DNA of 64,000 nucleotides from an uncultured Gammaproteobacteria bacterium. Its GTDB lineage: Bacteria; Pseudomonadota; Gammaproteobacteria; Arenicellales; JAANXG01. The notes under the pieces are model-generated. The model was not told the DNA's origin. It saw only the letters and a program-made list of their open reading frames with translations, and searched no databases. Of the stretch, positions 1,347 to 16,585 are shown in pieces. The position numbers and the translations under genes were made by a program. The stretch lies in assembly GCA_947258975.1 (NCBI GenBank), contig CAMYKK010000004.1, positions 1 through 64,000 on the forward strand, given 5' to 3'. Numbering within the stretch: the stretch's first letter is position 1; every line of letters begins with the position of its first letter.

Positions 1347-2450
1347 TCATAAGAGATTCAAGTACACCGACCGGGTCAGGTTTGCGCATCGGTCCCAGGA
1401 AAAATGCTGTGCCCGGTCTCTGCCTGCCGTGATCATACGTTCTCGAACGGTGGAGGAGTTGAGCGCCTCCTCAATCGTGTGCGCCATGCCGCCAACGTCT
1501 GTTGGATCAAAATACACCGCGCCCTCGCCAGCGATCTCGGGCATGGAACTACTATTGCTGCATGCCACTGGACATCCCATGGACATGGCTTCCACTAAAG
1601 GAATTCCAAAGCCCTCGTAGAGGGACGGGTACAGAAACACGGCGGCGTTCATGTAGAGGGCGGCGAGGTCTTGATCAGAGCAACTAACCTGGATGATGCG
1701 AGTCTCAGGAATGCCCAACCTCCGCAGTGACTCTCGTTCGCTGCGCCTGATCTTTCCCCCGCCACAACAAACAATCGAGAAGTTCGTGCGTAACCACCGG
1801 GAAGTCGAGTACGCTTGGAGAGCGCGGTGGAAATTCTTATATCCACCGCGTTGTCCGACGTAGAGGATAAATGGAACAGGGATTGCCGCGGGCAGTGAAT
1901 CCACGTCCGTCTCGGTCAGAGAAGACGCGAGGTGGATAACTGAAGTTTTCGCCGGATCAATATCCAACAACGCGATCAGGTCGCTGCGGGTACTCTCGGA
2001 AATACAGATCATATGATCAGCGCGCTTGACCGCCGCGGCTTTGTTTCTCGCCGCCACATCAAAGCGCGAGAAAAAGCCCGGAAATCGTTCGTGAATCATG
2101 TCGTAAACGGTGAGTACGACCGGGGTATGCTGTGACGCGAGGTGCCGGTTGGCGAAAAAGGTTTCATGCAGCAGGGATGGCGGTCTGCGACGTATGGCCG
2201 ATGCCACCAACGGAGCATTTAGATTTCGCAGTATACGAGAGCTGAACGGGGGGCGACGGATGTATCGCCCAAGGACGTCTAGTCGCGGGGAATCCGCCAG
2301 ATAGCGGTTTACATGCAGAGGCGCGAGGATACGGACGTCGAATTCGGCGAACTGGGAGATACGTGTGGCGAGTTCGACAAAGTAACGAGATATTCCTCCG
2401 TATTCCTGGGAAGCGAAGATCTGATGGTCATACGCGATCTGTGCGGGCAT
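1347..2450 (-). CDS. Glycosyltransferase family 4 (mannosyltransferase-like)
   Basis: A 367-residue GT-B fold glycosyltransferase of family GT4. The N-terminus carries the acceptor-side signature EYGGISRYFVELA (about residues 17-29), typical of GT4 mannosyl- or rhamnosyltransferases. The C-terminal donor-binding domain has FILYVGQRGGYKN and the EX7E motif in SLYEGFGIPLVEAMSMG. It is expected to act on a lipid-linked oligosaccharide at the cytoplasmic face of the inner membrane. Gmd follows immediately, so the donor may be GDP-mannose or a derived GDP-6-deoxyhexose (inference). No membrane segment is visible. Confidence 0.85.
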   Translation of the reverse strand: MPAQIAYDHQIFASQEYGGISRYFVELATRISQFAEFDVRILAPLHVNRYLADSPRLDVLGRYIRRPPFSSRILRNLNAPLVASAIRRRPPSLLHETFFANRHLASQHTPVVLTVYDMIHERFPGFFSRFDVAARNKAAAVKRADHMICISESTRSDLIALLDIDPAKTSVIHLASSLTETDVDSLPAAIPVPFILYVGQRGGYKNFHRALQAYSTSRWLRTNFSIVCCGGGKIRRSERESLRRLGIPETRIIQVSCSDQDLAALYMNAAVFLYPSLYEGFGIPLVEAMSMGCPVACSNSSSMPEIAGEGAVYFDPTDVGGMAHTIEEALNSSTVRERMITAGRDRAQHFSWDRCANLTRSVYLNLL

Positions 2451-2677: not shown

Positions 2678-3430
2678 CTATTTTAGACGACCTGGCGGCA
2701 GGTCTAATTGCGCAAGCGCGGCCCGAGCCAAAGCCAGATTTGAGTCGATGGAAACAAATCCTTGGGCCCGCAAGTCGGGAGCGAGCATGGAAAGCTCCGT
2801 GCAGCCCAGTAATACGGTGTCGACCCGCTTCGCTTCCAAGAACGAAAGCAGTTTGTCGAGGCAAACTTTACCGTCGTCGTCCCATCCACCGTGCACCTTG
2901 ACGGTCTCGATGAGGCCGCTGACGAGCACATTGCCTTCAGGTGCCAGCGGACAATCCACCAATCCGTGATCAGTGGCCGCGCTGTTGTAGAGGCCAGAAG
3001 CGGACAATGACGAGGAAACAAACGCGGTAACGCGCTTTGCGCCGTGTGCCACCGCCAGCTTCATGGTCTCGTGAACGATGTTTGGAATCGGCACCGGGGC
3101 TCCCTGAGACCAACGGTTGTAGAGAATGTGCGCGGTGTTGCAGGGCACAACGACCACCGTTGCCCCCTGCTTGTGCAACTCCTTTATGGTCTCCGCGATC
3201 GCCGGCGAAGGATCGGGCTCTCCTAGTTGAAAGTGTCGGCCCCGACTCGGTAACTTAGTGTTTATGTCGAGCAGCACGCGGGGGTAGTGCCAATCCTTTT
3301 CGGCACGCACCTCGTGATACAACGCGCGGCAAAAATCGATCGTGGCCCACGGCGCCACACCGACGATCCCCAAGGTCCCCTCATTCGGCCGCCAGTCTAC
3401 TTCGCCCCCGAGGGGAGCTATTTTCGGCAT
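2678..3430 (-). CDS. Aspartate/glutamate racemase family protein
   Basis: A 250-residue PLP-independent Asp/Glu/hydantoin racemase superfamily protein. Both catalytic cysteine motifs are present, VPCNTAH (about residue 100) and LLGCTELS (about residue 209), so it should be catalytically competent. The family includes aspartate, glutamate and hydantoin racemases and maleate isomerase; the substrate cannot be read from the sequence. It is the last gene of a six-gene operon and begins 6 bases after the preceding methyltransferase stop codon. Sitting among sugar-nucleotide-type enzymes and a serine-kinase-like protein, it may supply a D-amino acid or related acid for a glycan modification (inference). 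Confidence 0.8.
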   Translation of the reverse strand: MPKIAPLGGEVDWRPNEGTLGIVGVAPWATIDFCRALYHEVRAEKDWHYPRVLLDINTKLPSRGRHFQLGEPDPSPAIAETIKELHKQGATVVVVPCNTAHILYNRWSQGAPVPIPNIVHETMKLAVAHGAKRVTAFVSSSLSASGLYNSAATDHGLVDCPLAPEGNVLVSGLIETVKVHGGWDDDGKVCLDKLLSFLEAKRVDTVLLGCTELSMLAPDLRAQGFVSIDSNLALARAALAQLDLPPGRLK

Positions 3431-3436
3431 CGCCGC

Positions 3437-4144
3437 CTAGGTTCCGTCATAGCGAAACTCGTAGATATGCAACCGCGTCTCGGGATACTTGTTCAACGGA
3501 CACCCTTCGTCAAAGACATTCTCGTCACGCGACACCGTGAATCCGTTGCGGGCGAACATTTCGATGAAAGTCTCTCGTGTGCGATAAATTGCGGAATATT
3601 CGGTCTGCAGGTGTTGAGAAAAAGCCTTGTTCAGCTCATAACGCTTCTCACGCGCCATACCATCACGCAGGATGACGCAGGTATTGGCGTCGCAGAACAT
3701 CGGTAGATTTGTGGCGATCTTTTCCACCTGATCGTCGTTCATGTTCACGAAGAGGCCGGAGATATACACAATGTCGTACTTGGCATTCTCCACATAATCC
3801 TCGGCCGGAGACACCACGAAATTGACTTGGTCCGCACCGCGGTCACGTGCTTCTTTCCTGCCGACCTCGCAGAGGTCAGCAGAATACTCCACGGCCTTCA
3901 CTAAATGTGCGCCGCGTTCGGCAAATCGAAACGCCCACTGCCCCACTCCCGCACCCAAATCGAGGATGCGCTTGCCAGTGACGTCCGGGAGGTAGTCGAA
4001 CACCTTGTTGCATTCGAGTCCGATCTTCAGCTTTAGATTATCGGGGTCCTGCTCCAGCCCGGCGACACTCTCGAACGCCATGTCCTGGTAGGTCTTTGCC
4101 CGTTCATCCCAGAATTTCTTAACATCGGCTTGATCGATGGCCAT
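3437..4144 (-). CDS. Class I SAM-dependent methyltransferase
   Basis: A 235-residue Rossmann-type methyltransferase. Motif I is RILDLGAGVGQWAFRFAERG (about residues 58-77), followed by an acidic strand end (VEYSADLCEVG) and a motif IV-like segment (YDIVYISGLFVNM). The start ATG at 4144 follows a purine-rich GGAG at good spacing on the minus strand. The acceptor is unknown. It is the fifth gene of the six-gene operon, between the DUF711 gene and the racemase gene, so O- or N-methylation of the small-molecule product of this cluster is the simplest role (inference). Confidence 0.82.
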   Translation of the reverse strand: MAIDQADVKKFWDERAKTYQDMAFESVAGLEQDPDNLKLKIGLECNKVFDYLPDVTGKRILDLGAGVGQWAFRFAERGAHLVKAVEYSADLCEVGRKEARDRGADQVNFVVSPAEDYVENAKYDIVYISGLFVNMNDDQVEKIATNLPMFCDANTCVILRDGMAREKRYELNKAFSQHLQTEYSAIYRTRETFIEMFARNGFTVSRDENVFDEGCPLNKYPETRLHIYEFRYDGT

Positions 4145-4172
4145 AATAAACTCCTTGGAGCCCTAGGGTGGA

Positions 4173-5402
4173 TCACTTCAGGGGAGCGCGCATTTCAAAA
4201 AGGTGTTCCGAGAGTACGATCTTTCTGTCATTTGCGGTTAAAGGTACGACGCGACTGTCACACAAAAAGTCAAGATTTAGCTGTGTAAATTCGTTCACCC
4301 CGCGATTGGGGATCGGCAACATTCGCACGCCGAGCGGCTTTTTCAGCGTCGAGGACATAGCAGCGATGTCCAGGATGACCGCCGCGATTTCCTCCTGAAA
4401 ACAGATCCCTGAGACGGGGACCATGTCGATACCGCAGCCACAGACAGCAGCCAGAGAAACCAGGCCATCCAGGGTGACGTTGCGCTTGCTGTTAGCACTG
4501 GCCAAGTGCTTGTCCTCGAGCATGGAATACATGACGCCGTTGAAACCGACGGGTTTTGCCCCGCTCTCTTTGAGAGCACAACGAAGGGCATCGGTCAGCA
4601 TAGCGGTAATGAAGACGCTGCCGTGACTGCCGACCGATGCCCCCAGCAGCTGCTCTACCAAGGCCCCAACGGATGTTCCATCCCCCGGGAACGGGGCCAG
4701 GGACGCGTCCATTCCCCGGAACTCAACATCCGTCTTGCTGGCCAACTCCTCGGCCAGAGATTGTACCTTCCGTAACGTTGGCACTAAGGCCTCTATCAAA
4801 TGCTCACGGGCCAGCGCCACGTTACCTTGCACCGACTTGGTGGCCTCAACAGCCAGGTTGGTCGTTTCGAGCGCGAAGCTGAAAGCGAGATTATCGCCTT
4901 TATGTTGGGAGAAGGGGAAAAATGGGCTGTTGGGGGGGCAATTACAGGATGCGCCGACACGGAAGTTGTCAAAACCGTTGTTACTCCTGCGCGATATCTT
5001 GAGAATTAGATCGGCCACCTGATTGACTGAATTAACTGCAATTTTGCCATCCTCGGCGACGATCAAGTTGAGAAACAGACGTGGGAAGCGACCGATCACA
5101 TCTATCGCCGCGGCCATGCGTACAGTATTGAGGCCATCGGCGACCAGATCAATGGGTAGGCACATCCACCGCACGCCCGTATCGGCCGACAGCTCATCGA
5201 CAAAACGCACCCGCGAAAGTATTGCCCCCTCGATCTCTCCTTCCTGGCCGACTGCAGGCAATGCAAAGCGCACCGTACGCGGCGCCAAGTCAGCCGCCTC
5301 CAGTGTCGCTATGGCTATTTCCAAGAAACCGCGCACGCGCTCTCGGATGTGGCTGGGAGACTTCGTAGCTAGAGGAAGGCCGATGGTGAGCGATCGGATC
5401 AT
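4173..5402 (-). CDS. DUF711 (UPF0210) family protein
   Basis: A 409-residue protein resembling DUF711/UPF0210, a family without an established reaction and usually of about 450 residues. The recognisable family region is the MDASLAPFPGDGTSVGALVE stretch (about residues 223-242), with the glycine-rich C-terminal RMLPIPNRGVNEF. A Cys-containing segment (CNCPPNSPFFPF) lies near residues 153-164, and CGCG lies near 327-330. No signal peptide or membrane span is visible. DUF711 genes usually stand with an ACT-domain gene. Here the gene sits inside a glycan-type operon, 12 bases after a nucleotidyltransferase gene and 28 before a methyltransferase gene, which is unusual. Confidence 0.72.
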   Translation of the reverse strand: MIRSLTIGLPLATKSPSHIRERVRGFLEIAIATLEAADLAPRTVRFALPAVGQEGEIEGAILSRVRFVDELSADTGVRWMCLPIDLVADGLNTVRMAAAIDVIGRFPRLFLNLIVAEDGKIAVNSVNQVADLILKISRRSNNGFDNFRVGASCNCPPNSPFFPFSQHKGDNLAFSFALETTNLAVEATKSVQGNVALAREHLIEALVPTLRKVQSLAEELASKTDVEFRGMDASLAPFPGDGTSVGALVEQLLGASVGSHGSVFITAMLTDALRCALKESGAKPVGFNGVMYSMLEDKHLASANSKRNVTLDGLVSLAAVCGCGIDMVPVSGICFQEEIAAVILDIAAMSSTLKKPLGVRMLPIPNRGVNEFTQLNLDFLCDSRVVPLTANDRKIVLSEHLFEMRAPLK

Positions 5403-5414
5403 CGGGATGATGCG

Positions 5415-6086
5415 TTACTGCTCTCGAAGTTTGTTGATGAACCGATAGTAATCCGCCGGAGTATTGATCTCTTCGAACAAATGATTTTTTCGGGGCACCG
5501 CCTGGATTGGCGCGATATTGAACGGCAAGGTAAGCCCCGCGAAGAGGTTGCCGTGCCCGATGCAGAATCGCTTCCAAGATCGCAATACTTTTGCATCAGA
5601 CACTTTGAACAGACCGATCACCTCGGGATGAGCCACATCCCGAATCTGTCCTTGGTAGGTCTCGGAAATGGAGTTGTCGTCACGGAGTATGCAATGAACC
5701 GCGGTTAACGTTCGGTTCTCACGGTCGTCTACAAGAGCCAAATTCGGATTGTCTTGATCCAGCTCTTCGATCAAGGCCGGCTCAATAAAAATATCGCCTG
5801 AAATGACATAGGTTGGATCGTCGTTCAGCGCCAAACCGAGGCTCATTGCGTTATGGGTGATGGCCCAGTCGTTATTGATCACGTACCTGACCTCGGGGCG
5901 TTGCTCCATGACCTGGATGGCACGAAAACCAACCACAACGGTGACACGCTTACCCCTAAACGCTTCAATGGCGTGGTCTAATACAGTTTTTTTGCTTTTC
6001 GGATGACGGATCAAAACCTTGGCCAGGCCATCCGCCTGACTGCCACGCCCGGCGGCGAGTATGATCACCTGTTCCGGTGCCTTCAC
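5415..6086 (-). CDS. NTP-transferase (MobA/LicC-like nucleotidyltransferase), second copy
   Basis: A 223-residue nucleotidyltransferase. The N-terminal pyrophosphorylase loop VIILAAGRGSQADGLAKVLI (about residues 8-27) is followed by VTVVVGFRA and a metal-binding-type acidic strand YVISGDIFIEPALIEELD. This matches sugar- or alcohol-phosphate nucleotidyltransferases such as CTP:phosphocholine cytidylyltransferase (LicC). The start ATG overlaps the stop of the upstream SerK-like gene by 4 bases, indicating translational coupling. The C-terminus (HLFEEINTPADYYRFIN) is typical of small NTP transferases that recognise a phosphorylated small molecule. Substrate and nucleotide are unknown; CTP is favoured by analogy. 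Confidence 0.75.
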   Translation of the reverse strand: MKAPEQVIILAAGRGSQADGLAKVLIRHPKSKKTVLDHAIEAFRGKRVTVVVGFRAIQVMEQRPEVRYVINNDWAITHNAMSLGLALNDDPTYVISGDIFIEPALIEELDQDNPNLALVDDRENRTLTAVHCILRDDNSISETYQGQIRDVAHPEVIGLFKVSDAKVLRSWKRFCIGHGNLFAGLTLPFNIAPIQAVPRKNHLFEEINTPADYYRFINKLREQ

Positions 6087-6466
6087 TGTTTCAACTCATC
6101 GAGGCTGTATTCACAACTGGGCAGCGGAGTTGGAAAACGGTGCTTGACCGTCTTATAAGGATAGATGTCTCCGGCCACCGCTTTTTCGACGACCTTCTGC
6201 CAGTCGAAACTGTACTTGGGTCGCAGGCTCCATACCTCGACTTCCGCGTACTCATATTTCACCGCCGGGACAACCGACAATCCAAGGGACCGAGCCACTT
6301 CCATTCGGTGTTGGCCGTCGAGTACGAGGTTCTCGTTGTTATCTAGGGCGATCGGTTTAATCCAAACGCCTTCATTCACGATCTTGGTCTTCAGCTTCTC
6401 CACGCGACGTTCGCTGAATCCCTCTATATGTCGCAATTTCAACACCGGAACTAATTCAATAGTCAT
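6083..6466 (-). CDS. SerK/SbnI-like ParB-fold protein, possible small-molecule kinase
   Basis: A 127-residue single-domain protein of the ParB/Srx-like fold. The motif GVWIKPIALDNNENLVLDGQ (about residues 33-52) continues into HRMEVARSLG, and the C-terminus is YPYKTVKHRFP followed by PLP and SLDELKQ. Both ends of this pattern parallel the archaeal ADP-dependent serine kinase SerK (a DGHHRW motif and a C-terminal PKTTRH segment) and staphylococcal SbnI, which make O-phospho-L-serine. This copy is much shorter than either. Its start and stop each overlap the neighbouring nucleotidyltransferase genes by 4 bases (ATGA). A DNA-binding ParB role is unlikely in this setting. The kinase role is an inference from motif similarity recalled from memory. 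Confidence 0.65.
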   Translation of the reverse strand: MTIELVPVLKLRHIEGFSERRVEKLKTKIVNEGVWIKPIALDNNENLVLDGQHRMEVARSLGLSVVPAVKYEYAEVEVWSLRPKYSFDWQKVVEKAVAGDIYPYKTVKHRFPTPLPSCEYSLDELKQ

Positions 6467-7236
6467 GGGGCTGCTCCGCCTATGAGTGCCTCATACTGAG
6501 CGTTGATTGATCGATAAGAATCGAGATTATTAAAAGAATGAGCGAACCGGCTACCCAAAGAATAGCCCTTGCAAGGTAGCTTAGCCAGGTTTGAGCACCA
6601 GGGCGTCATATAGTATTGCCGCATGGTCTCGCGGATAGCCTCCTTGCGCAGCGCCCGATCGGTGGACGCCTGTCCTTTTCCCACGAAAACGACACCGAGC
6701 AGCTTCTGCCAGCCCTCGTAGGCGAGGTCGTAGGCCGGTGCGTACACCATCTCTGCGACATTCTGTTCATCATCGACGCGCAGCGCCCCTCCGGTGAGAT
6801 CGCGGGAATAAGAACCGCGAGTCAACCACAGCGAATGACCATCAGGATCGATGCTCAGAATGACGCGCCAACCCTCAGGTTCGACCACAATGTCTGTCTC
6901 GATGATTACATAACCCTCCTCTGGATGGCTCAGAGACTCGACGCCGATATCGACGGAACGAATGTTGGTATCGCGGTCGAAATCCGGGTTGTGTACCACT
7001 TTAATACGCTCATCGTCATAGTGGCTGCCAACGAAATTGCGAATCTTGTAGTCCATATACCCCGTGACCAGCGCGATGTCGCCAACCGGATTTTCAAGCA
7101 ACGCGTCCATGATGTGCCCGATGCAGGGCCGCCCGGCGATAGGTAATAGAGACTTGTGTGTATGAGTCGTAAGCTCGGCGATCCGACTACCACGACCGGC
7201 GGCCAACAACACCACATTTAGTTTACTGCTCTGCAT
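6463..7236 (-). CDS. NTP-transferase (LicC-like nucleotidyltransferase), first copy
   Basis: A nucleotidyltransferase of about 257 residues from the chosen ATG at 7236; an upstream ATG at 7269 would add 11 residues, and neither has a clear Shine-Dalgarno sequence. The signature loop VVLLAAGRGSRIAELT is followed by HKSLLPIAGRP, the classical pyrophosphorylase pattern with the catalytic Lys. VIIETDIVVEP carries the metal-binding acidic residues. It resembles phosphocholine or aminoethylphosphonate cytidylyltransferases and sugar-1-phosphate nucleotidyltransferases. It is the first gene of the six-gene operon, and its stop overlaps the SerK-like start by 4 bases. With the second copy at 5415-6086 it makes a pair of related but clearly divergent enzymes. 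Confidence 0.8.
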   Translation of the reverse strand: MQSSKLNVVLLAAGRGSRIAELTTHTHKSLLPIAGRPCIGHIMDALLENPVGDIALVTGYMDYKIRNFVGSHYDDERIKVVHNPDFDRDTNIRSVDIGVESLSHPEEGYVIIETDIVVEPEGWRVILSIDPDGHSLWLTRGSYSRDLTGGALRVDDEQNVAEMVYAPAYDLAYEGWQKLLGVVFVGKGQASTDRALRKEAIRETMRQYYMTPWCSNLAKLPCKGYSLGSRFAHSFNNLDSYRSINAQYEALIGGAAP

Positions 7237-7619
7237 GCGAGTAAGGTTCAAACGAGCATTTACCGGCATTAGTCAGGGACCGATACAATCAATAATCGAG
7301 GGGTTAACGATAGCAACGATCTGTGTTGCTCCAGTATTGGCCACATATGGCAGAGCACTTCTATTGGCTGCGAAAATCGATGCCTTGGGCTCATCGTCAT
7401 TGCTGGATCTCTTCAATTACTAACATGCCTATCGTCAAGGGTCTGGAACGTGATCAGGCAACCTTTGTAATGCAGGATGCAGGATATGTCGAGACCGATG
7501 CGCTGGGCGATTAATCACACGGATCGATGTGCGATCGGACGTAAATTTCACGATTGTGTTGTGCCCGCTCCTCATCATCCTGGTATTCCGAGTTTCAACC
7601 GGACATTGCGAGATCTGAA
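7237..7619. other. Intergenic gap upstream of the six-gene operon
   Basis: About 380 bases between the stop of the GT-B-like gene and the first nucleotidyltransferase gene. Short open frames on both strands have no recognisable content or initiation signals. The gap probably holds the promoter of the 7236-2678 operon on the minus strand, but no good -35/-10 pair could be chosen. No terminator hairpin was seen for the upstream gene pair. Confidence 0.4.
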
Positions 7620-8558
7620 TCATGCGGGCTGAGGCTGTCCATCAAGTAACTTGATTGCTTCTGCGAAATCAAACGGCTTTAGTTCCCGTGTCGACGAATG
7701 GCCGGTGTCGATGGCGGCAATGTCAAACTGGGCGGTGTCCTCAATAAAAGTTAGCTGTTTCAGCTTATTGAATAAGACCCGCTGCTTGTTACCCTTATAT
7801 TTTTCGATGATGTTTACCGTGGGTTTTCCGTAATAATAGGATTCAGCTACCACCGACGATTCTGAATTGGTAACAATTACCCGGTGTTTGTGTATCAGCT
7901 CCATGGTATCGGTCTCCGACGGGAATATCTCGACTCCCTTGCTTGCAAAGTAATCCTCGTATTGGCGCGTTCCGGTCCACGCAGGAAACTTCACCGCAAC
8001 CCCCTGTCTGACTACCGGTTCCATTTTTCTGAAGGTTTTCTTGACGCCGAATCGGTGTTGATGGTAACCAAAATCGGAGAAAAGCCATAGTGCATTCAGA
8101 GTGTTATACGAATCACGCGGGAACTCCCGGGTGTAGCGGATCCACCCGGTGACGTGGCAATTACACCTTCCTACATCGTACCGGTGTGCCGAAGTCGGCG
8201 CGAGATAAAGATCGAATTGATCCATCAGCAACGGTTCGATGTCCACCAGGGGCGTAGCCAGGTCATGCGGAACGAAGACACTCGTGTTTGGAGTAAGCAC
8301 TGAAATCAGTTCCAGAGGTGATAAATAGAACTTACCCGTATCATAGATCTCATTAAATGACCGGTTATCGAGTGCGAAGTGTGCCGATGTTATCAATACG
8401 AGGTCCCGCGATCTGAACCGTTCGATCAGCGCCTTTGTTATCGGCGTGCGATTGGCATCGAGCTCGAAACAGTCATACCCCCGTTTCACCATTTCAACGC
8501 ACAGAGGATGCAACACGTATTCGGACCCGAAGCCATAGAATAGAAACAGCTTACTCAC
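7620..8558 (-). CDS. GT-B-like transferase, possibly CDP-glycerol glycerophosphotransferase-like
   Basis: A 312-residue cytoplasmic protein with two Rossmann-like halves. The C-terminal half contains VTNSESSVVAESYYYGKPTV (about residues 237-256), the pattern of a GT-B nucleotide-binding domain as in TagF-type CDP-polyol phosphotransferases and some capsule transferases. The N-terminal half (KLFLFYGFGSEYVLHPLCVE) resembles the acceptor domain of such enzymes. It overlaps the upstream gene by 4 bases and lies upstream of the two nucleotidyltransferase genes. A role in transferring the CDP-activated product of that operon onto a glycan is attractive but unproven. Family assignment is tentative. 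Confidence 0.5.
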   Translation of the reverse strand: MSKLFLFYGFGSEYVLHPLCVEMVKRGYDCFELDANRTPITKALIERFRSRDLVLITSAHFALDNRSFNEIYDTGKFYLSPLELISVLTPNTSVFVPHDLATPLVDIEPLLMDQFDLYLAPTSAHRYDVGRCNCHVTGWIRYTREFPRDSYNTLNALWLFSDFGYHQHRFGVKKTFRKMEPVVRQGVAVKFPAWTGTRQYEDYFASKGVEIFPSETDTMELIHKHRVIVTNSESSVVAESYYYGKPTVNIIEKYKGNKQRVLFNKLKQLTFIEDTAQFDIAAIDTGHSSTRELKPFDFAEAIKLLDGQPQPA

Positions 8559-9538
8559 GGCAAGACGACCGTTTTGGGGTGCGGAAGTTTTCTAACTTCG
8601 TAGGTCTTTTGCACGTAAGTGCCGCGGTCGCGCCGCGGCGCCCGGGTTGTGCAAGTGGTTCTGAGGTAATACAAACCATCGTAGATATGGTAGCGGCTTA
8701 TTTCGGTTTCCGTCGGCGCTGATAGACCGTCAGGGATTAAGCAATTCAATGCGTGAATCTCGAAGAAACCGCTGCGGTGAAGGGTTTGCCGCAGGTAGCT
8801 CTCCTTGTACACATAACATTCGACGCTGCGTCGTGTGTCGACCGGGTAGCGCAGAAAATGCTCCAATTTCGTCTGTAGCGGCGAAACCCGAAACGTAGCG
8901 ATGATGGCGCGGTTCACCTTCAATGCCAGGCGCTCGTACAGTCCGGTTGTTCTGAGCATGAGCGATGCGATATCGGGATCGCAGATGAGCGCGTACTCGC
9001 AGTCACCCACCACCTTTGTGAGATCATGCAGGTGGCCGATGTGAACGCCGCATCCTTCGGCGTTGTTGTCAGTTTCCGATGCCGACGGTCCACGCCGTGG
9101 GTCCATCGGCTCGAAGTACTGAATCAGTCCTCCGTCCATAGACATCGCCTGTGACCGTAGGTATGGATTATTGTCGATAATAAGTACGCGGTCACCGCCA
9201 TGCAGATATCTCTCGATGGTGCGGAGCTGTTGCTGTTCGGATTCAGACGCGCCCGTTTTCTGCCGATACACGCACCTATGTTCGTGGTGCAGGCACGCCA
9301 AAGCGCTACGGCGGTTTAGCGCGCCGGCAAACGACTCGACCATGGCCTCATGGTGTCTGCGCGTCTCGCCGTTCGCGTTGACGGGACTAGGCACGCGCTG
9401 TTGTGACCTGTAAAAGCGCCCCAACGGCGTGGGCGTCAGCAGGCAAAGAAGGAGAGCCCGAAATCGCCGACGGTTTCGTGCCCGCACGGCAGCAGAAATT
9501 CTGAACAAATCAGCGATAGGTGGCATCTTCGGATGCAC
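8555..9538 (-). CDS. Unrecognised protein with a possible methyltransferase-like core
   Basis: A 327-residue protein I cannot assign to a family. The N-terminus is very Arg-rich (RARNRRRFRALLLCLL). Around residue 113 a strand-like VLIIDNNPYLRSQAMSM is followed by acidic IQYFEPMDPRRG. Around 180 EYALICDPDIASLML could be the carboxyl half of a Rossmann sheet, and the C-terminal order of strands recalls class I methyltransferases. No glycine-rich SAM motif is visible. The start codon ATG is at 9538; an alternative ATG lies four codons later. It is translationally coupled (4-base overlap) to the GT-B-like gene downstream, so the two products probably act together. Confidence 0.55.
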   Translation of the reverse strand: MHPKMPPIADLFRISAAVRARNRRRFRALLLCLLTPTPLGRFYRSQQRVPSPVNANGETRRHHEAMVESFAGALNRRSALACLHHEHRCVYRQKTGASESEQQQLRTIERYLHGGDRVLIIDNNPYLRSQAMSMDGGLIQYFEPMDPRRGPSASETDNNAEGCGVHIGHLHDLTKVVGDCEYALICDPDIASLMLRTTGLYERLALKVNRAIIATFRVSPLQTKLEHFLRYPVDTRRSVECYVYKESYLRQTLHRSGFFEIHALNCLIPDGLSAPTETEISRYHIYDGLYYLRTTCTTRAPRRDRGTYVQKTYEVRKLPHPKTVVLP

Positions 9539-9705
9539 GTGTCTGTTGCGGTTGAGTTGTCTCGTGGCCGGGCGGGGTAGGGGGCATCGGGCACGCTACC
9601 GCCCTACCGGGATCCCAACGTTGCCGGTATTTGAACCTGCGATGCATGTCGCATAATCTTGTTTGCCCAAGCGACGCCAGGTCCATGGACCGGCGTCATT
9701 AGCCG

Positions 9706-10302
9706 CTATGCCGTCGATCCGCGCCCAATCTCAGGATAGTTTCCGTCGTGCCAAAGCAACAGATGAGGCCGCTTTTCGAGCATCATCTTGTTGGCCGTAT
9801 ACTCATCTCGACGCAAGATCAAAACGCGGATCTTACGGCCGATGTAGCGCTCCGTTTTTCTGGTTAGGTCGTCCACGTTGTTGCGATTGATGTTGCCGAC
9901 CAATACCAGATCGATCAATCCCGAGTCCTTTCCCTCCGCGTAATCGTCCAGCAGCATCGCAAGCTCGAGGTCCCCGATGCGCTGGATCATGCTGTCCAGG
10001 ATCCGGTCCATGCCCAGGGCCTTCTTGACCATCGCGTTGAGCTCGGGGAACAGGGCATGTCGCGTGTTCGCCCGATACATGATCTGGCGTCCTTCGGGCT
10101 GGCTCTCGAGTAGGCCGGCGTCGGCGAGCTGGTGGAGTTCCTCCTTGACAAGGCTGGGTGAGGTACCAAACTCATTAGCGAGTTGGCGTAAATACGCGCG
10201 TTTATGGGGGTTTAAGAACAGACGCATCAGGATCCGCACCCGGGTCTTGGAGGTGATCAATCCGCCAAATGCGCTTTGTAACGAACTGGGATTTTCGTTC
10301 AT
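9706..10302 (-). CDS. Winged-helix regulator with nucleotidyltransferase-like C-terminal domain
   Basis: A 198-residue protein. Residues 18-85 form an ArsR-like winged helix (ILMRLFLNPHKRAYLRQLAN, then SPSLVKEELHQLADAGLLES). The C-terminal part (about 115-190) resembles an MNT/KNTase-type nucleotidyltransferase fold (GLIDLVLVGNINRNNVDDL) but lacks the usual GSxxxGxxxxxSDxD motif, so it is probably non-catalytic. Such proteins often sit at the edge of polysaccharide clusters and are likely transcriptional regulators of them. The gene is divergent from the methyltransferase gene at 10843, with a long intergenic region between them. Function is inferred from domain layout and location. Confidence 0.7.
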   Translation of the reverse strand: MNENPSSLQSAFGGLITSKTRVRILMRLFLNPHKRAYLRQLANEFGTSPSLVKEELHQLADAGLLESQPEGRQIMYRANTRHALFPELNAMVKKALGMDRILDSMIQRIGDLELAMLLDDYAEGKDSGLIDLVLVGNINRNNVDDLTRKTERYIGRKIRVLILRRDEYTANKMMLEKRPHLLLWHDGNYPEIGRGSTA

Positions 10303-10842
10303 ATTTTATGAACGATATTGGAAAATGACCGATTGTCAAGCATCCTCTTATTATTTGCCGTCATTCCACCAAACGCGCTGCCAGCATAATTGTTCTCCTG
10401 ACGCTCCAGGCTGTTATGTGTGCTTGGGTGCGTTCGCCTCCTAATCACGTGCGTACGCCGCATGTTTCCGGCCGTTAGCTGCGGACATGCCGACAGCCCC
10501 GCGTCGATGATGCCCCGGTATGCTTCCATCTTCCGCACCACCGCAGGCCAGCTCGCATACCGCATCGATTGGTTGTCCAGATCCGATCAAACCGAACCGT
10601 CTCGACCCGTAATAGATCGTCCGCCCTGTCACACCCGGCGTGTCGGTTAATGCCACCCACATTCAATCGCAACGCCGTCGTCCGTGACCCTGGGTGTAAT
10701 ATGCGGATTGCCCGTACGCCACCCGATTTTATAGGCATCGGCTCAGTTATTTTTGATCTCACTATTCCGGAAAAGGGCAATTTTGTCGGATCTATTTTGA
10801 TGTGGTCATGAAACATTCGGTTACGTATCGGAGGGATGGCGT
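10303..10842. other. 540-base divergent intergenic region with one repeat copy
   Basis: No convincing gene was found in this gap between the winged-helix gene and the methyltransferase gene. It should carry promoters for both. Positions 10673-10714 hold a degenerate copy of the TGGTGCAATA-type dispersed repeat described separately. Sequence from about 10735 to 10842 is visibly more AT-rich and leads into the Shine-Dalgarno GGAGGG at 10830-10835. Confidence 0.5.
10673..10714 (+). repeat. Dispersed repeat (TGGTGCAATA family), degenerate copy
   Basis: The segment CGCCGTCGTCCGTGACCC followed by TGGGTGTAATATGCGGATTG aligns without gaps to the copy at 45128-45167 at roughly three quarters of positions, counted by eye. 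It is non-coding here. Confidence 0.5.
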
Positions 10843-11601
10843 TTGAAAAGAGGATATCAGTTTGGGTTTTCGAGCAAAGGACATGCAATGTATGACATAC
10901 AGCATCGCGAGCATAAGGCGCGAACCATGGTGGCGGTTCTGGGAGATTTCTTGGATCAACCTCTCCATCAAATGCGCCTACTGAATGTCGGCGGCTCGGC
11001 AGGAATCGTTGACAATTATTTGGCCGACCGTTTTGGATGGGTAGTTGGCATAGATATTGACGAACCTGCGATCAAATACGCCCGAAAAAATTTCACAAAG
11101 GACAATTTGGAATTTCAAGTTGGAGACGCTCTTAAACTGCCGTTTCCGGATCACACGTTTGAAGTTGCTGTTTGTTCTCAGGTATATGAGCATGTACCGG
11201 ATCCCAGGAAGATGATGGATGAAATTTTCAGGATTCTTGTGGCGGGTGGAGTCTGCTACTTTGCGGCGAGTAACAGGCTGATGTGGAACGAACCGCATTA
11301 CAATCTACCGCTGCTATCTGTTATACCCCGACCGCTTGCACATTTCTATGTGAGGCTGCTGAGTCGGGGCACGCACTATCATGAACTTCATTACACTTAC
11401 TGGGGGCTCATGGATCTTGTGCGTCGTTTTGTCGTGCATGACTATACGCTGCGTATCATCCGCGAACCCAAAAAATATTCTGTGGACTACATGATCCGAC
11501 CTGACAGCGGTAAGGCTAAGCTTGCAGCATTCATTGCCGCCAACTGCCGGTGGTTGAATCCTGGTTATATCTGGTTGCTGCAAAAACCCGGGACACGGTA
11601 A
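10843..11601 (+). CDS. Class I SAM-dependent methyltransferase (Methyltransf_11 type)
   Basis: A 252-residue methyltransferase starting at TTG 10843, chosen because GGAGGG lies seven bases upstream; the next ATG (Met-16, at 10888) lacks such a site. Motif I is LLNVGGSAGIVDNYLADRFG (about residues 46-65), followed by VVGIDIDEPAIKYARKNF and the post-motif segment LKLPFPDHTFEVAVCSQVYE. The LPFPDxxFD-like signature is typical of Methyltransf_11 enzymes. It is the only plus-strand gene in the first 20 kb and is more AT-rich than its neighbours, suggesting separate acquisition. The acceptor is unknown; a lipid-linked sugar is plausible from context. Confidence 0.8.
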   Translation: MKRGYQFGFSSKGHAMYDIQHREHKARTMVAVLGDFLDQPLHQMRLLNVGGSAGIVDNYLADRFGWVVGIDIDEPAIKYARKNFTKDNLEFQVGDALKLPFPDHTFEVAVCSQVYEHVPDPRKMMDEIFRILVAGGVCYFAASNRLMWNEPHYNLPLLSVIPRPLAHFYVRLLSRGTHYHELHYTYWGLMDLVRRFVVHDYTLRIIREPKKYSVDYMIRPDSGKAKLAAFIAANCRWLNPGYIWLLQKPGTR

Positions 11602-11685
11602 GCAGCGCGTCGAGTGCGCAAAGTGGTGACAGCATTCACTCCTGCGGACCTTAATGCGGTAGGCAAACGCCGTGTTCTGCTGTAG

Positions 11686-12921
11686 CTAAGGCATTGGCGG
11701 AAGTGAGGTTGGCATGGTCGCAACTCTCTGATATAAGTCCTTGAACCTGCCTGCGATTACCGGCCAATCGTATTTTTCTTGGGCGTGTTGCTGCGCCGTG
11801 TTCCCGATTTTTCTTGCGAGCTGATCGTCATTCAACACGCGTTCCAGAGCACCACGCAGGTCCTCATGGCAACCGGGCTCAACGAGTATGCCGGTCTCAT
11901 TGTGAGTGATGACTTCGGGTATACCGCCCGCCTTGGTTCCTATGACTGGCAGACCAGCGGAGAAGGCCTCGATGAATACGACCCCTTGTCCTTCAGTGTC
12001 TCCTGAGGAGGCCTCGATCGACGGTGCAGCGAAAATATCGGCCGCTGCGTAAAAATCCGGTAGTTTAAAATTATCCACCTTGCCCCAAAATTTCACGATC
12101 TCCCCAATACGAAGTTCATGCGCCTGATGCTCAAGCTTGGGGCGATCTTCACCATCTCCCACTATCCACAGCCGTATGTTGATTCGATCCACTCGAGATA
12201 AATCCGCAATCGCTCGAATTAGATGAGTGACCCCCTTTTTTTCCACCAATCGGCCGACAAATAGAATGATTTTTACATCGTCTGATAGTCTGTCCCGCAG
12301 TCTATCCCGATGTCCGGTCATGAAGCGTTTAACGTCAACACCCATGGGGATAACTTCCAGGGGCGACTTTAATGACGGACTCGATATGGCTGAGGCGGTG
12401 GCGTTTGTGTTTGACGTCCATACCGCACTTTGGTTTATTGCAAAGTGTTTTAGCTTCTTCAACCAGGGGGCGTTGAGGGCAAATGCGTCTGCGCCGTGAA
12501 CGGTAACGATCGTCGGTAGTTTGAAAATCATTGTATTGAAGCCGCATGCCACGCCAGCCGGGACGATCCAATGGGCATGAAGAAGATCTGGTTTGGTCTG
12601 TTTGACCAGTCTGCGTATTCCCAGCGACATACCCGCCATGAATGCAGGTACTTGCAACCACAACAACGGATTACGCTTCAGGTTCAGTAATGCCCCTGAT
12701 CCATAGGCGAGTAGTTGCCATCTTCGCGGAAAGTAACCAAAGTAATTGACCCTCACCGGTGAATCCAGGGGCTGTTGCAGGCCCGTGCCGCCGGGCGCGA
12801 GCACGGATACGGAGACCCCGAGAGAGTGCAGGTTTTCAGCTAGATAACGAAGAAAAATCGATGCGGAATCGGCCTCGAAACGAGGATAACTGGAGGCTAC
12901 GAATAGAACGCGGATCGACAC
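11686..12921 (-). CDS. Glycosyltransferase family 4
   Basis: A 411-residue GT-B enzyme. The N-terminus VLFVASSYPRFEADSASIFL and the Gly-rich LAPGGTGLQQ are typical of GT4 enzymes of exopolysaccharide pathways. KIILFVGRLVEKKGVTHLI (about residues 218-236) starts the donor domain, and EGQGVVFIEAFSAGLPV provides the EX7E motif. It lies 2 bases after a GT2 gene and is the third gene of the minus-strand set TMTC-like GT-C, GT2, GT4 that follows pilA. It probably extends the glycan at the cytoplasmic face. Donor and acceptor are unknown. Confidence 0.87.
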   Translation of the reverse strand: MSIRVLFVASSYPRFEADSASIFLRYLAENLHSLGVSVSVLAPGGTGLQQPLDSPVRVNYFGYFPRRWQLLAYGSGALLNLKRNPLLWLQVPAFMAGMSLGIRRLVKQTKPDLLHAHWIVPAGVACGFNTMIFKLPTIVTVHGADAFALNAPWLKKLKHFAINQSAVWTSNTNATASAISSPSLKSPLEVIPMGVDVKRFMTGHRDRLRDRLSDDVKIILFVGRLVEKKGVTHLIRAIADLSRVDRINIRLWIVGDGEDRPKLEHQAHELRIGEIVKFWGKVDNFKLPDFYAAADIFAAPSIEASSGDTEGQGVVFIEAFSAGLPVIGTKAGGIPEVITHNETGILVEPGCHEDLRGALERVLNDDQLARKIGNTAQQHAQEKYDWPVIAGRFKDLYQRVATMPTSLPPMP

Positions 12922-12923
12922 GG

Positions 12924-13817
12924 CTAATCGTCTGTACGGCGGCGCCTCTCCTCCGAATTCCTATAATGCAAGGAGGACACCTGCTCTGAAAGAATCCCGA
13001 TCAAAAAAATGATCAGTGACGAGACGTACAACAACGCACTCATATTGGTGAACCGCGATTCATTGACATAGGTATAACCGTAATACACGGTGGCGATTGA
13101 GAACAGCGCTGCACTAATTGGCAGGAACAGCCTCATAGGTGAAAATAATGCGCCGATTTTCAAGATGATTACCAGAAAACGTACGCCGTCTTTGATGACA
13201 CTGATATTACTCTGGGAATTAGAGTCACGCTGTTTGGCCTCTATTTGAACATACGTTACCGAATAGCCGTTGCGAAAGAATGCCATCGTGCTCGTTGTGG
13301 GGTAAGAGAATCGGTTTGGCAGTAAATATAAGAAGTTCCTGAACGCCTTTGCGCGGACGGCGCGAAAGCCGGAGGTGAGATCCTCGATGTGATATCCCGT
13401 CATCAGGCTCGCGAGCCTGTTAAAACCGGTATTGGCCAACAGCCGCGAAAAGGATGCTTGGGTTTTGGCAGAGCGTGATCCGACCACCATGTCATAGCCA
13501 TCTTCAATCTTGCTCAACAGTCTTGCTATGTCTTTGACGGAGTGTTGCCCATCGGCGTCCATGAGCACGAGCACGTCGCCGGAGGCCGCGCGTGCGCCGG
13601 TCTTGATTGCGGCGCCGTTACCGACATTGTAGGGATGCTTTATGATCGTCACGCCCTCAATGCGAGGAATCTCCGGAGAAGAGCCGTCATCCACGACGAT
13701 GACCTCGGCATCCGGGTGCAAAGTCATGATCTGCGCGCACAACCGAGCAATGGTGTCTTGTTCATTGAAACAAGGAAGGATGATGCTCAAAGAAGTGTCA
13801 GCGTGCGTGCTTTTCAT
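12924..13817 (-). CDS. GT2 polyprenyl-phosphate hexose synthase-like glycosyltransferase
   Basis: A 297-residue inverting GT2 enzyme of the Dpm1/GtrB type. The GT-A domain has LSIILPCFNEQDTIARL (about residues 10-26), VIVVDDGSSPEI, and the metal-binding DxD in VLVLMDADGQHS. Two C-terminal hydrophobic segments (about 227-245 and 262-280) anchor it in the inner membrane, as in GtrB-like synthases. The expected reaction loads a sugar from a nucleotide donor onto undecaprenyl phosphate. Its start lies inside the end of the upstream multi-span GT-C gene (20-base overlap), which argues that it supplies lipid-linked donor to that enzyme (inference). Confidence 0.87.
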   Translation of the reverse strand: MKSTHADTSLSIILPCFNEQDTIARLCAQIMTLHPDAEVIVVDDGSSPEIPRIEGVTIIKHPYNVGNGAAIKTGARAASGDVLVLMDADGQHSVKDIARLLSKIEDGYDMVVGSRSAKTQASFSRLLANTGFNRLASLMTGYHIEDLTSGFRAVRAKAFRNFLYLLPNRFSYPTTSTMAFFRNGYSVTYVQIEAKQRDSNSQSNISVIKDGVRFLVIILKIGALFSPMRLFLPISAALFSIATVYYGYTYVNESRFTNMSALLYVSSLIIFLIGILSEQVSSLHYRNSEERRRRTDD

Positions 13818-15732
13818 CTCGGGACAGCTCGCGATTCAAGTGAGTCTCCCAGCGCGCCAGCGCCTTGGAGTCAATGCTGACTTTTGCGATGGAGTATTTA
13901 TTGGCATCTTTGGCTCGCGATAACGCATCCCTGGATTGGTCCCATTCTCCCGCTGCCGCCCAAAATCTTGATTCTAGCAGGGCGTAGTCCATCCGTGCGT
14001 GATGACGAAACGCTGTTCGCAGCGCCTCGGCCGCCCGGCCGTAATCTTTAGCATCACTATGTATTTTGGACTCAACCACATATAAATTCGCGGTTCGTGT
14101 CCGTTTGTTCTGGAAATCCGGATTGGCTTGCAGGGCCCGTATTAATCGAAGGGTATCGTCCGGCGTCAATGTCAGGCAGCGCTTTTCTCTTTGTTTCTGG
14201 AATATGAACTCGAGAGTCTGAGCAACCGCGGTGTCGTATCGTGACTCAGACAGACGGGACTCAAGCGATTCGAATTCGGCGTCATCCCATTCCTTACCTT
14301 GCAGGCAATGTACCACCGCCAGTTGCAGCGGCGGACTGGTGATGTCGGGGTTGATGGCGGTGGCTTTGGTTAAAAACTCCGCGGACTTTTCGAAGTTACC
14401 ATAGCGTAGCCAGACACTGGCCGCATTCTGCTGAGACCGATAGGATCCGGGGTGTTCCAGCGCCCAGACCGTTGCCAATGCCAGCGGGTTGCCCCACAAA
14501 GCGGCTGCGCGCGCCGTGGTGACGGCGGTGAGGATGCCGAAGATCACCAAAGATGCCTGGAGAAATTTGGACACATCGCTGGGAATGGTGAATAGATAAT
14601 AAACCATGGCAAAGAGTATTCCATACATTGCCAGGTAGTTGCGGTGCTCAAAGTAAAGTTCCAGGGGGAAGATTGTCGATTCCAACAAGTGGCTGATGAA
14701 AAACCAGATGATCGCGAAGGCGAGCACTGGATAACGGGTTCTGGATAGGAACGCGGTCAACCCCAGGCCAATCAAGCCGCCGACTGCTAACAGCGTCGAT
14801 ATTGGATCCAACAAAGATCGAGACAAGACATAATCATCATGAAAGATGCCCGTACCTTGACGGACGGGAACGATGATATGACCGAGGTAATCGAAAATTA
14901 TCCGGCTCTCGGTCATCAACCTTTCACTCATGGAGAAAGGCCGTGCGGCAAATCCCGACTGGATGGACGGAATTCGCCAGAGCAGCCAGGACACAAAGAC
15001 CGTAAGCGGAAGGAACAGAAAGACAGTCGCCCACCGGTTCCATTTCCGGGGCGAATCAACGCCTCCTTGGCGCAGAATCAAGTATTCGATCGCCAACGCG
15101 AACAGAAGGATGAGTACGCCGTTTTCCTTGCTCAAGGTGGCGAGCGTCCCGCCGATGGCGATTCCGGTCGACATCCATAAGTATCCGCCGGCGACATTCC
15201 TGGCGGCGGTGATGCGCCCGTGGGTGTAGGCCAGCAGGCCGATGACGGTGAACAGCATGGAAAGCTGGGCCATCCGCTGTACCACATAAAGCGTCGTAGA
15301 GACGTTGAACGGATGCAGCAACCATACGCCCATGGTGATCACGGCAATGGTCTGATTGCGGGCCTCTTGCTGTTGATTCATGACGCGGCACAGCAGCAAG
15401 CTGAGCCACGCCAGGGCCACTCCGGTGAGCAGGTGCAGTTGTAGATTGGTGCGTTTGAACCGGTATGGTGGAGACGGCCAGGTGTTGTCGTCGAGGAAAA
15501 ACGAGGCCAGCGCTACCGGGCGGCCCAACTCTCCGGCGGTGCCGGTCAGAATATACCGATAGGCGTCGCCGACATTATGCACCGTCTGCATGCCCTGCAG
15601 AGCCGGTATGTCGTCCAACAGAAAAGAACCCCTTAAACCGGGACTGTAGAGCCACCACGTCAGCGTGAGCAGGATGACGAGCGCCGCCGACGGAGCGACT
15701 GCAACGAACCTGTCTTTGAGAGGATAGCGCAA
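13798..15732 (-). CDS. TMTC-like multi-span GT-C glycosyltransferase with C-terminal TPR-like region
   Basis: A 644-residue inner-membrane protein. About ten hydrophobic segments occupy the first 420 residues, and a hydrophilic helical TPR-like region fills the rest. The first periplasmic loop has an acidic pair (SFLLDDIPAL) and RPVALASFFLD; later segments are NLQLHLLTGVALAWL, LLHPFNVSTTLYVVQRMAQL and LATLSKENGVLILLFALAIE. This order matches TMTC/DUF1736-type GT-C enzymes, whose eukaryotic members transfer mannose from dolichyl-phosphate-mannose to protein. It is the first gene after pilA on the same strand, behind a terminator, and overlaps a polyprenyl-phosphate-hexose-synthase-like gene. 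Pilin or another exported protein is a likely acceptor (inference). Confidence 0.75.
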   Translation of the reverse strand: MRYPLKDRFVAVAPSAALVILLTLTWWLYSPGLRGSFLLDDIPALQGMQTVHNVGDAYRYILTGTAGELGRPVALASFFLDDNTWPSPPYRFKRTNLQLHLLTGVALAWLSLLLCRVMNQQQEARNQTIAVITMGVWLLHPFNVSTTLYVVQRMAQLSMLFTVIGLLAYTHGRITAARNVAGGYLWMSTGIAIGGTLATLSKENGVLILLFALAIEYLILRQGGVDSPRKWNRWATVFLFLPLTVFVSWLLWRIPSIQSGFAARPFSMSERLMTESRIIFDYLGHIIVPVRQGTGIFHDDYVLSRSLLDPISTLLAVGGLIGLGLTAFLSRTRYPVLAFAIIWFFISHLLESTIFPLELYFEHRNYLAMYGILFAMVYYLFTIPSDVSKFLQASLVIFGILTAVTTARAAALWGNPLALATVWALEHPGSYRSQQNAASVWLRYGNFEKSAEFLTKATAINPDITSPPLQLAVVHCLQGKEWDDAEFESLESRLSESRYDTAVAQTLEFIFQKQREKRCLTLTPDDTLRLIRALQANPDFQNKRTRTANLYVVESKIHSDAKDYGRAAEALRTAFRHHARMDYALLESRFWAAAGEWDQSRDALSRAKDANKYSIAKVSIDSKALARWETHLNRELSRDEKHAR

Positions 15733-15747
15733 TGAACCAAGGTCAAT

Positions 15748-15776
15748 AAAAAAAGACCCCGGTCGAAACCGGGGTC
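15748..15776 (-). terminator. Rho-independent terminator of pilA
   Basis: On the minus strand the nine-base stem GACCCCGGT, loop TTCG and ACCGGGGTC are followed by seven T. The hairpin lies 26 bases beyond the pilA stop and separates pilA from the GT-C gene, so downstream expression would need read-through or its own promoter. Confidence 0.9.
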
Positions 15777-15801
15777 AGCAGTACATGTGTCAATAAAATG
15801 A

Positions 15802-16242
15802 TTACGACTTAGGACGACACTCCGGCGGCAGATACCGTGCTAGCACACCGTCAGTGGTGGGCGCCGCGCATTCAAAATTCACCGAACCGGCGCTCGTCGC
15901 GGGTGTCAGGGTCACCATCTGATCCTCGATCTTTCCCTCTGTGCCGTTGTAGGTAATGGTGATGATCCCCGAGACGCCCGAGATGTCTATCGAGGCGGTG
16001 TAATCGCCGTTGATTTTGCTGGGCTCTGCAACACCGGCCTGGGTGTTATTGGTGGGCAAATCACCCATCGCGACATAGTATTCGGCGACGCCGGTCTTGG
16101 CGGGTGACGCCAAGGCCAGGCCTTCCGACACCTTCGCGCGGATGGTGTAGTCCTGATAGGCCGGGATCGCGATCGCGGCCAAAATGCCAATAATGGCCAC
16201 TACGATCATCAGTTCGATAAGAGTAAAACCGCGTTGTTTCAT
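15802..16242 (-). CDS. pilA: Type IV major pilin
   Basis: A 146-residue prepilin. The start ATG at 16242 is fixed by AGGAG eight bases upstream and gives a six-residue leader, MKQRGF, with [20 protein letters not shown] as the N-methylated hydrophobic helix; Glu5 of the mature form is present. PilD would cut after Gly. A C-terminal disulfide loop is visible, [18 protein letters not shown], followed by RPKS, so the chain ends in Ser. The pilin assembles into pili in the cell envelope. A sigma-54-type promoter lies upstream, and the PilR/PilS genes follow further upstream on the same strand. The C-terminal Ser recalls the glycosylated group I pilins of Pseudomonas aeruginosa. Confidence 0.95.
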
Positions 16243-16415
16243 CGTTACATCTCCTAGTTTCTTGGTGTTACACACCTGGTTACCTGTTACCTGGAATCAA
16301 AAAGTCACCTCAATTTACAAGGAACAGCGGCCGAGTCCTTGGCCGCAGGTTCCCTTACACCCCAGACATCCCCACTGAGTCAGCGTTGTTCAGTTCGCTG
16401 CGGTTGCTGTTTAAC

Positions 16416-16432
16416 TTGCAGAAACCGTGCCA
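16416..16432 (-). promoter_or_regulatory. Sigma-54 promoter of pilA
   Basis: The minus-strand sequence TGGCACGGTTTCTGCAA matches the -24/-12 consensus, with GG and GC exactly ten bases apart. It lies about 175 bases upstream of the pilA start and downstream of pilR, the expected PilR-RpoN control. Further upstream, AAAAATTGTC (minus strand, about 16565-16574) resembles the AT-tract plus TGTC pattern of PilR sites. Confidence 0.8.
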
Positions 16433-16585
16433 ACTCGGGGAGTTTGTCCGACTGATGTTTTTTTCATTTTGTAATCAGTAACTTGTCTCGATACACGTCG
16501 ATAGCAGAGGCAGTCCGATAAACGGTATTTTTTAGTGTATGGACGGGTTTCGTCACTTTGGCTGACAATTTTTGCCAGTTCCACC

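Follow-up and report, generated by a model that had tools for sequence, protein, structure and literature searches.

What does a bacterium make with two nucleotidyltransferases, a relative of free serine kinase, a member of a family so far without a function, a methyltransferase and a racemase, all encoded in one tight row of genes? The question is raised by the first 64,000 nucleotides of contig CAMYKK010000004.1 (assembly GCA_947258975.1) from an uncultured gammaproteobacterium, hereafter the window, whose base 1 is base 1 of the contig. Its minus strand carries a six-gene cassette (7269-2678) encoding, in this order, a LicC-like nucleotidyltransferase (NT1), a SerK-like protein (SRK), a second nucleotidyltransferase (NT2), a DUF711 protein, a methyltransferase and a racemase. 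We propose that the cassette makes a cytidine diphosphate (CDP)-activated phosphate derivative of a serine-like amino acid, which is put on a glycan as a phosphodiester, and we give this proposal a probability of about 0.63.

A cassette conserved across phyla

The six genes are tightly packed, with gaps of -4, -4, 12, 28 and 6 bases between successive open reading frames. Both the packing and the gene families described in an earlier, sequence-only reading of this DNA hold when the frames are checked and searched against Pfam and NCBIfam: NTP_transf_3 for the two nucleotidyltransferases, a SerK/SbnI-like ParB fold, PF05167 (DUF711), Methyltransf_25 and Asp_Glu_race. That reading named a lack of conserved co-occurrence in other genomes as a ground for rejecting it, and on this count it stands: the six genes do occur together elsewhere. 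Scanning genome contigs with an SRK alignment yielded 17 loci, and 10 of them carry NT1-SRK-NT2-DUF711-methyltransferase-racemase in the same order and on the same strand, with overlaps mostly of 1-8 bases. The complete cassette is present in Xanthomonas sp. XNM01, Agrobacterium sp. AGB01, Pseudomonas mangrovi, Pantoea wallisii, Roseovarius litoreus and metagenome-assembled genomes (MAGs) of Thermoanaerobaculia, Rhodobacteraceae, Burkholderiales, Methylotenera and Desulfocapsa. Recurrence of an identical gene order in ten other genomes from several phyla is far beyond chance. The distance matrices of five cassette proteins correlate in pairwise comparisons across eleven operons (r 0.58-0.92), as would be expected of a unit inherited jointly. 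The cassette is nevertheless rare: among 398 Pseudomonadota genomes, only that of the window has a cassette-type SRK.

Reduced forms exist as well, in myxobacteria, one Firmicute-like genome and viral contigs, frequently with the kinase and a nucleotidyltransferase joined in one protein. In two deltaproteobacterial/polyangial MAGs the row stops after the fourth gene. On a viral contig of 335 kb, the SRK query found an NT-SRK fusion with DUF711 and a methyltransferase after it; on a second viral contig these are four separate genes (NT, SRK, DUF711, methyltransferase). Loci L024 and L027 contain the fused NT-SRK plus DUF711. The smallest common set is NT1, SRK and DUF711.

Some matches were set aside. 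Isolated SerK-like copies from three further Pseudomonadota genomes, L028 and L018 are distant or lack the rest of the cassette and were not counted, and the match in L009 is a phage protein bearing a ParB-like patch, which we rejected as a cassette. L018 (5849-10384) is a second locus of Xanthomonas sp. XNM01, where the extra SRK adjoins a TagF-like gene and two others that L014 also has. In the viral contig L008 (1079-3778), the NT-SRK frame breaks inside SRK and runs in frame into an apparent phage portal protein; the junction looks like an assembly chimera or a recombination product.

A minimal SerK-like protein

Is SRK (6083-6466, minus strand, 127 amino acids, matched by SerK profiles) a kinase? 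Its residues 9-99 align to SerK 24-120 and residues 88-116 to SerK 204-232, which means that some 85 residues in the middle of SerK have no counterpart in SRK. The AlphaFold model (mean predicted local distance difference test, pLDDT, 97.9) matches SerK structures in Foldseek with template modelling (TM) scores of 0.85-0.89 of the query, including 0.88 over 224 columns for 5x0b. E15 corresponds to the catalytic E30 of SerK, as seen in alignments with both wild-type and E30Q chains, and is invariant in 20/20 sequences, as are D50, G51, H53, R54 and K105. SRK thus shares with the free serine kinase of Thermococcus and with SbnI the fold, the catalytic glutamate, the DGxHR motif and the C-terminal KTxxH segment. 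It differs from them in being half as long and in scoring far under the NCBIfam equivalog cut-offs (28.5 vs 380 bits for SerK, 27.1 vs 350 for SbnI). In the substrate segment, the KTTRH of SerK reads KTVKH, with Val and Lys, a change that hints at an altered substrate. The setting differs too: SRK is coupled or fused to a nucleotidyltransferase, whereas SerK and SbnI are tied to cysteine or siderophore synthesis. Given the modelled fold and the invariant glutamate, SRK is plausibly a minimal free-serine kinase. This would take the ParB/SerK fold beyond serine metabolism and DNA partition.

Alternatively, the SerK-like protein could be a small switch or chaperone that binds cytidine or adenosine triphosphate (CTP, ATP) for the nucleotidyltransferase, the activated compound being an ordinary polyol- or choline-like one phosphorylated elsewhere. 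ParB folds do bind various nucleoside triphosphates, and an archaeal SerK-like fusion bound CTP (PMC12704722); the short length of SRK and its low equivalog scores fit such a role. We judge it unlikely, however, since the structural match is specific to SerK (TM 0.88, against ~0.45-0.5 for ParB; sulfiredoxin is in the same low range), all 20 sequences retain the catalytic glutamate, and SRK still has the C-terminal segment of SerK.

Two LicC-like nucleotidyltransferases

Which nucleotide would activate the phosphorylated compound? The best solved relative of NT1 (6463-7269, minus strand, start at 7269 or 7236; PF12804, E 2e-10) is the CTP:phosphocholine cytidylyltransferase LicC (1jyk), which is also the only solved relative found with the NT2 profile (E 2e-5; NT2 at 5415-6086, minus strand, PF12804). 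Candidate metal-site residues are conserved in both: the ExD motif and an Asn of NT1 are invariant (18/18), and in NT2 Asp98 is invariant (14/14) and Asn208 is found in 13/14. The metal site of GlmU uses Asp and Asn at equivalent positions. CTP is the substrate we would predict for NT1 and NT2 from their relatives. NT1 is fused to SRK in several of the related loci.

From the observed gene order, families, catalytic residues, fusions and neighbours we infer a substrate, an order of steps and an acceptor. SRK would phosphorylate the side-chain hydroxyl of a serine-like amino acid, and NT1 would join the resulting amino-acid phosphate to cytidine monophosphate, giving a CDP-amino acid. At some stage, the methyltransferase would N-methylate the amino acid and the racemase would invert its alpha carbon. 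A TagF-like or LicD-like transferase would finally move the amino-acid phosphate onto a sugar as a phosphodiester, the acceptor being presumably a flagellin glycan in P. mangrovi and other surface glycans elsewhere. These steps are accessible with small soluble proteins.

Methyltransferase and racemase

The methyltransferase, which depends on S-adenosylmethionine (3437-4144, minus strand; PF13649, E 2e-12), is 50-58% identical to its counterparts in nine other operons; no specific family was found for it. By analogy with the flagellin glycans of Clostridioides difficile and Pseudomonas aeruginosa described below, it would act on nitrogen. The racemase-family protein (2678-3430, minus strand; PF01177, E 3e-24) retains both family cysteines, C97 and C210, in 11/11 sequences. 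Its closest solved relatives are aspartate racemases (1jfl), and it scores 135.6 bits against the NCBIfam equivalog of the cysteate racemase CuyB, below the cut-off of 190. The amino acid is possibly racemised.

These relatives invite another interpretation, namely that the product is a phosphoramidate or another phosphate derivative of an acidic amino acid such as aspartate or cysteate, with the racemase providing the D-form and the kinase acting on a carboxylate or a nitrogen. We consider this very unlikely: a SerK-type active site acts on a hydroxyl, and several of the shorter forms have the kinase but no racemase (L007, L011, L021, L024, L026, L027).

Transferases and the glycan acceptor

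If a serine-like amino acid is phosphorylated and CDP-activated, where does it go? TagF-like transferases, matching PF04464 or homologous by profile, are found beside the cassette in 11/12 loci (L012, L013, L014, L016, L017, L019, L020, L022, L023, L025 and L026). The TagF-like gene of L014 lies about 2.8 kb off, on the opposite strand, and in L016, L022 and L023 the protein is fused to a further methyltransferase. In L027, a LicD gene lies immediately upstream of the NT-SRK fusion. Five copies of the cassette have amino-sugar genes (DegT, FdtA, hexapeptide acetyltransferase) at their flanks. Agrobacterium AGB01 has a compact seven-gene unit, in which the TagF-like gene joins the six; kdp genes border it on one side and a DUF1513 gene on the other. 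In P. mangrovi, the order is flgK, a flgL-like gene with a flagellin domain, the cassette, a methyltransferase-TagF fusion, amino-sugar genes, glycosyltransferases, fliC and fliD. This is a flagellin-glycosylation position, and it points to flagellin as a readily analysed product. The flagellins of the window's genome are on a contig other than that of the cassette, so flagellin need not be the target there.

The product might instead be a soluble or lipid-bound natural product, i.e., a nucleotide-activated amino acid destined for a lipid head group or a secreted compound. The cassette moves among unrelated genomes and settings, the copy of L014 adjoins efflux genes, and L021 has no transferase in the fetched stretch, all of which would suit such a product. 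With TagF-like or LicD-like transferases, glycosyltransferases or amino-sugar genes beside most copies, and one copy inside a flagellin island, we hold it to be quite unlikely.

The core of the sequence-only reading, that a serine-like compound is phosphorylated, CDP-activated and added to a glycan, is thus strengthened by the conservation of the operon, the SerK-specific structure and residues, the NT-kinase fusions, the adjacent TagF-like and LicD-like transferases and the flagellin island. The identity of the substrate and the placing of racemisation and methylation in the route are conjectural. Several points weigh against the proposal. SRK is short of SerK by some 85 residues, and Val and Lys stand where KTTRH has Thr and Arg; SerK itself phosphorylates serine, and neither threonine nor homoserine (PMC5120207). 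The minimal scheme leaves DUF711 and NT2 without a step. The transferase-less stretch of L021 counts here too, as does the window's genome, which gave no match to PF04464 or to the TagF-like A9 profile, although it is a draft and the contig is cut only 2.7 kb past the racemase gene.

A proposed pathway setting for DUF711

The DUF711 protein (4173-5402, minus strand) is a short form that scores 198.6 bits against PF05167, over the Pfam cut-off of 25. Its model (pLDDT 92.3) matches SP0239 (2ha9) with Z 41; ribonucleotide reductases score far lower (Z ~12-15). A review places DUF711 in the superfamily of ten-stranded barrels of the ribonucleotide-reductase type (PMC4390871); a barrel common to both shows no function. 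The cassette member has the family and fold of DUF711/UPF0210 proteins such as SP0239 and differs from the compared stand-alone forms by a second cysteine: CxCG(L/I/V)DM is present in 17/17 cassette proteins, whereas the four stand-alone copies (L003, L004, L038, L040) have CG(I/T)GLDT and SP0239 has a single cysteine at the position. Wherever the kinase and a nucleotidyltransferase occur together and the neighbourhood is complete, DUF711 is encoded too. Its place in the smallest common set suggests that it is required for making or altering the amino acid or the CDP intermediate. We found no published function for DUF711 or UPF0210, of either the cassette or the stand-alone kind, in the open-access literature, and the family here gains its first definite pathway setting.

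One could go further and suppose that the product is a CDP-activated amino acid that is both D-configured and N-methylated, and that DUF711, with its ribonucleotide-reductase barrel and cassette-specific CxC motif, acts on the CDP-amino acid itself by cysteine-based chemistry. We see little chance that this full scheme is right; if it were, DUF711 would have an enzyme activity not seen before, and the family its first function.

The stand-alone copies of L003, L004, L038 and L040 were rejected as cassettes given their other gene settings and the lack of CxC. Short stand-alone proteins of this kind, with CGIGLDT and not CGCGxDM, occur in gammaproteobacteria (L003 1135-2373, L004 1510-2799, L040 6435-7667), once beside purD.

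Relation to known systems

Is such a pathway known? The sequence-only reading had named no similar one, and had missed the gene sets CD0240-CD0244 of C. difficile and PA1088-PA1091 of P. aeruginosa, which follow the same logic without a SerK-like kinase, DUF711 or racemase. The Type A flagellin glycan of C. difficile is N-acetylglucosamine-phosphate-N-methylthreonine, and that of b-type P. aeruginosa is deoxyhexose-phosphate-N,N-dimethylthreonine (PMC8861647, PMC11833859). In the published model, enzymatically untested, phosphothreonine from a HAD-type PSP/ThrH homologue is turned into CDP-threonine by a LicC-like enzyme, with transfer by a TagF-like enzyme and methylation by a methyltransferase (PMC10714395). 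Phospho-(di)methylthreonine on sugars is known from these two flagellins, with a CDP-amino-acid route that is still hypothetical (PMC10714395, PMC11833859). Like these gene sets, the cassette has a LicC-like nucleotidyltransferase, a methyltransferase and a presumed glycan target, and its relatives add the TagF-like phosphotransferase and, in P. mangrovi, the flagellin-island site. Where a HAD-type enzyme was proposed, the cassette instead has a SerK-like protein, plus NT2, DUF711 and usually the racemase; no HAD family was found among the ten proteins of the window cluster that we scanned. The cassette is thus a functional variant of the C. difficile/P. aeruginosa route and not a member of that gene set. 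It would represent a second solution, not homologous to the first, in which a true kinase is plausible.

The flgL-fliC islands of eight genomes of one genus contain neither the cassette nor a recognisable PA1088-PA1091 set; one of them has a LicD/TagF/IspD-SDR island in that place. In L049, an island between flgL-like and fliC-like genes (4315-13567) encodes LicD, a TagF-like/HAD protein of 1030 amino acids and an IspD-SDR fusion; it looks like a CDP-ribitol-type flagellin decoration.

Other CDP-based systems are more distant. The LicC/LicD phosphocholine and TagF/TarF polyol-phosphate systems share with the cassette LicC-like activation and TagF-like or LicD-like transfer. They have another kinase fold, and the additional DUF711, racemase and methyltransferase of the cassette speak for an amino acid and against choline or a polyol. 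The Campylobacter O-methyl phosphoramidate pathway includes CDP activation of a phosphorylated amino acid, as we propose here. Neither its PEP-synthase-like glutamine kinase nor its amidohydrolase has a family member among the proteins of the window cluster. We found the gene set of the cassette described nowhere in the open-access papers searched, whether on DUF711 and UPF0210, on CDP-serine or on ParB proteins within glycosylation islands, and the passages searched of the December 2025 survey of ParB folds mention no nucleotidyltransferase fusions, DUF711 or glycans (PMC12704722).

A row of genes in L006 (4992-10071, i.e., 88930-94009 of Allorhizobium ampelinum pAtS4e) encodes pieces of a PEP-synthase-like kinase, a glutamine-amidotransferase-like hydrolase, a LicC-like nucleotidyltransferase and a CDP-alcohol phosphatidyltransferase. 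The row resembles a CDP pathway of the phosphoramidate type that is coupled to a lipid transferase.

Neighbouring genes

Upstream of the cassette, a GT-B-like protein that is a candidate transferase (7620-8558, minus strand) and an orphan protein (8555-9538, minus strand) are coupled by a 4-base overlap, as previously noted. The orphan has no significant family and no relative in the compared loci. The earlier suggestion that the GT-B-like protein resembles TagF is not supported: it has no PF04464 match, its comparison as a single sequence with the TagF-like profile of the related loci gives an hhalign probability of 0.4%, and its only match is a weak one to UDP-GlcNAc 2-epimerase (Epimerase_2, GT-B fold; E 0.007). 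Close relatives were not found in 60 related genomes, so a better profile for the TagF comparison could not be built. Downstream of the cassette are a GT4 glycosyltransferase (1347-2450, minus strand; PF00534, E 2e-28) and, at the end of the contig, a GDP-mannose-dehydratase-like gene.

In all phage-type loci, a gene of the PF00884 sulfatase/alkaline-phosphatase superfamily precedes the NT-SRK module (L007 2166-3488, L011 1675-3072, L008 3-1070, L024 1-279); its product may be a transferase or a trimming enzyme. In the Burkholderiales locus L020, the cassette is flanked by glycerol-3-phosphate cytidylyltransferase-like and TarF-like genes (8680-9165 and 15217-16704), and two CDP pathways may meet there.

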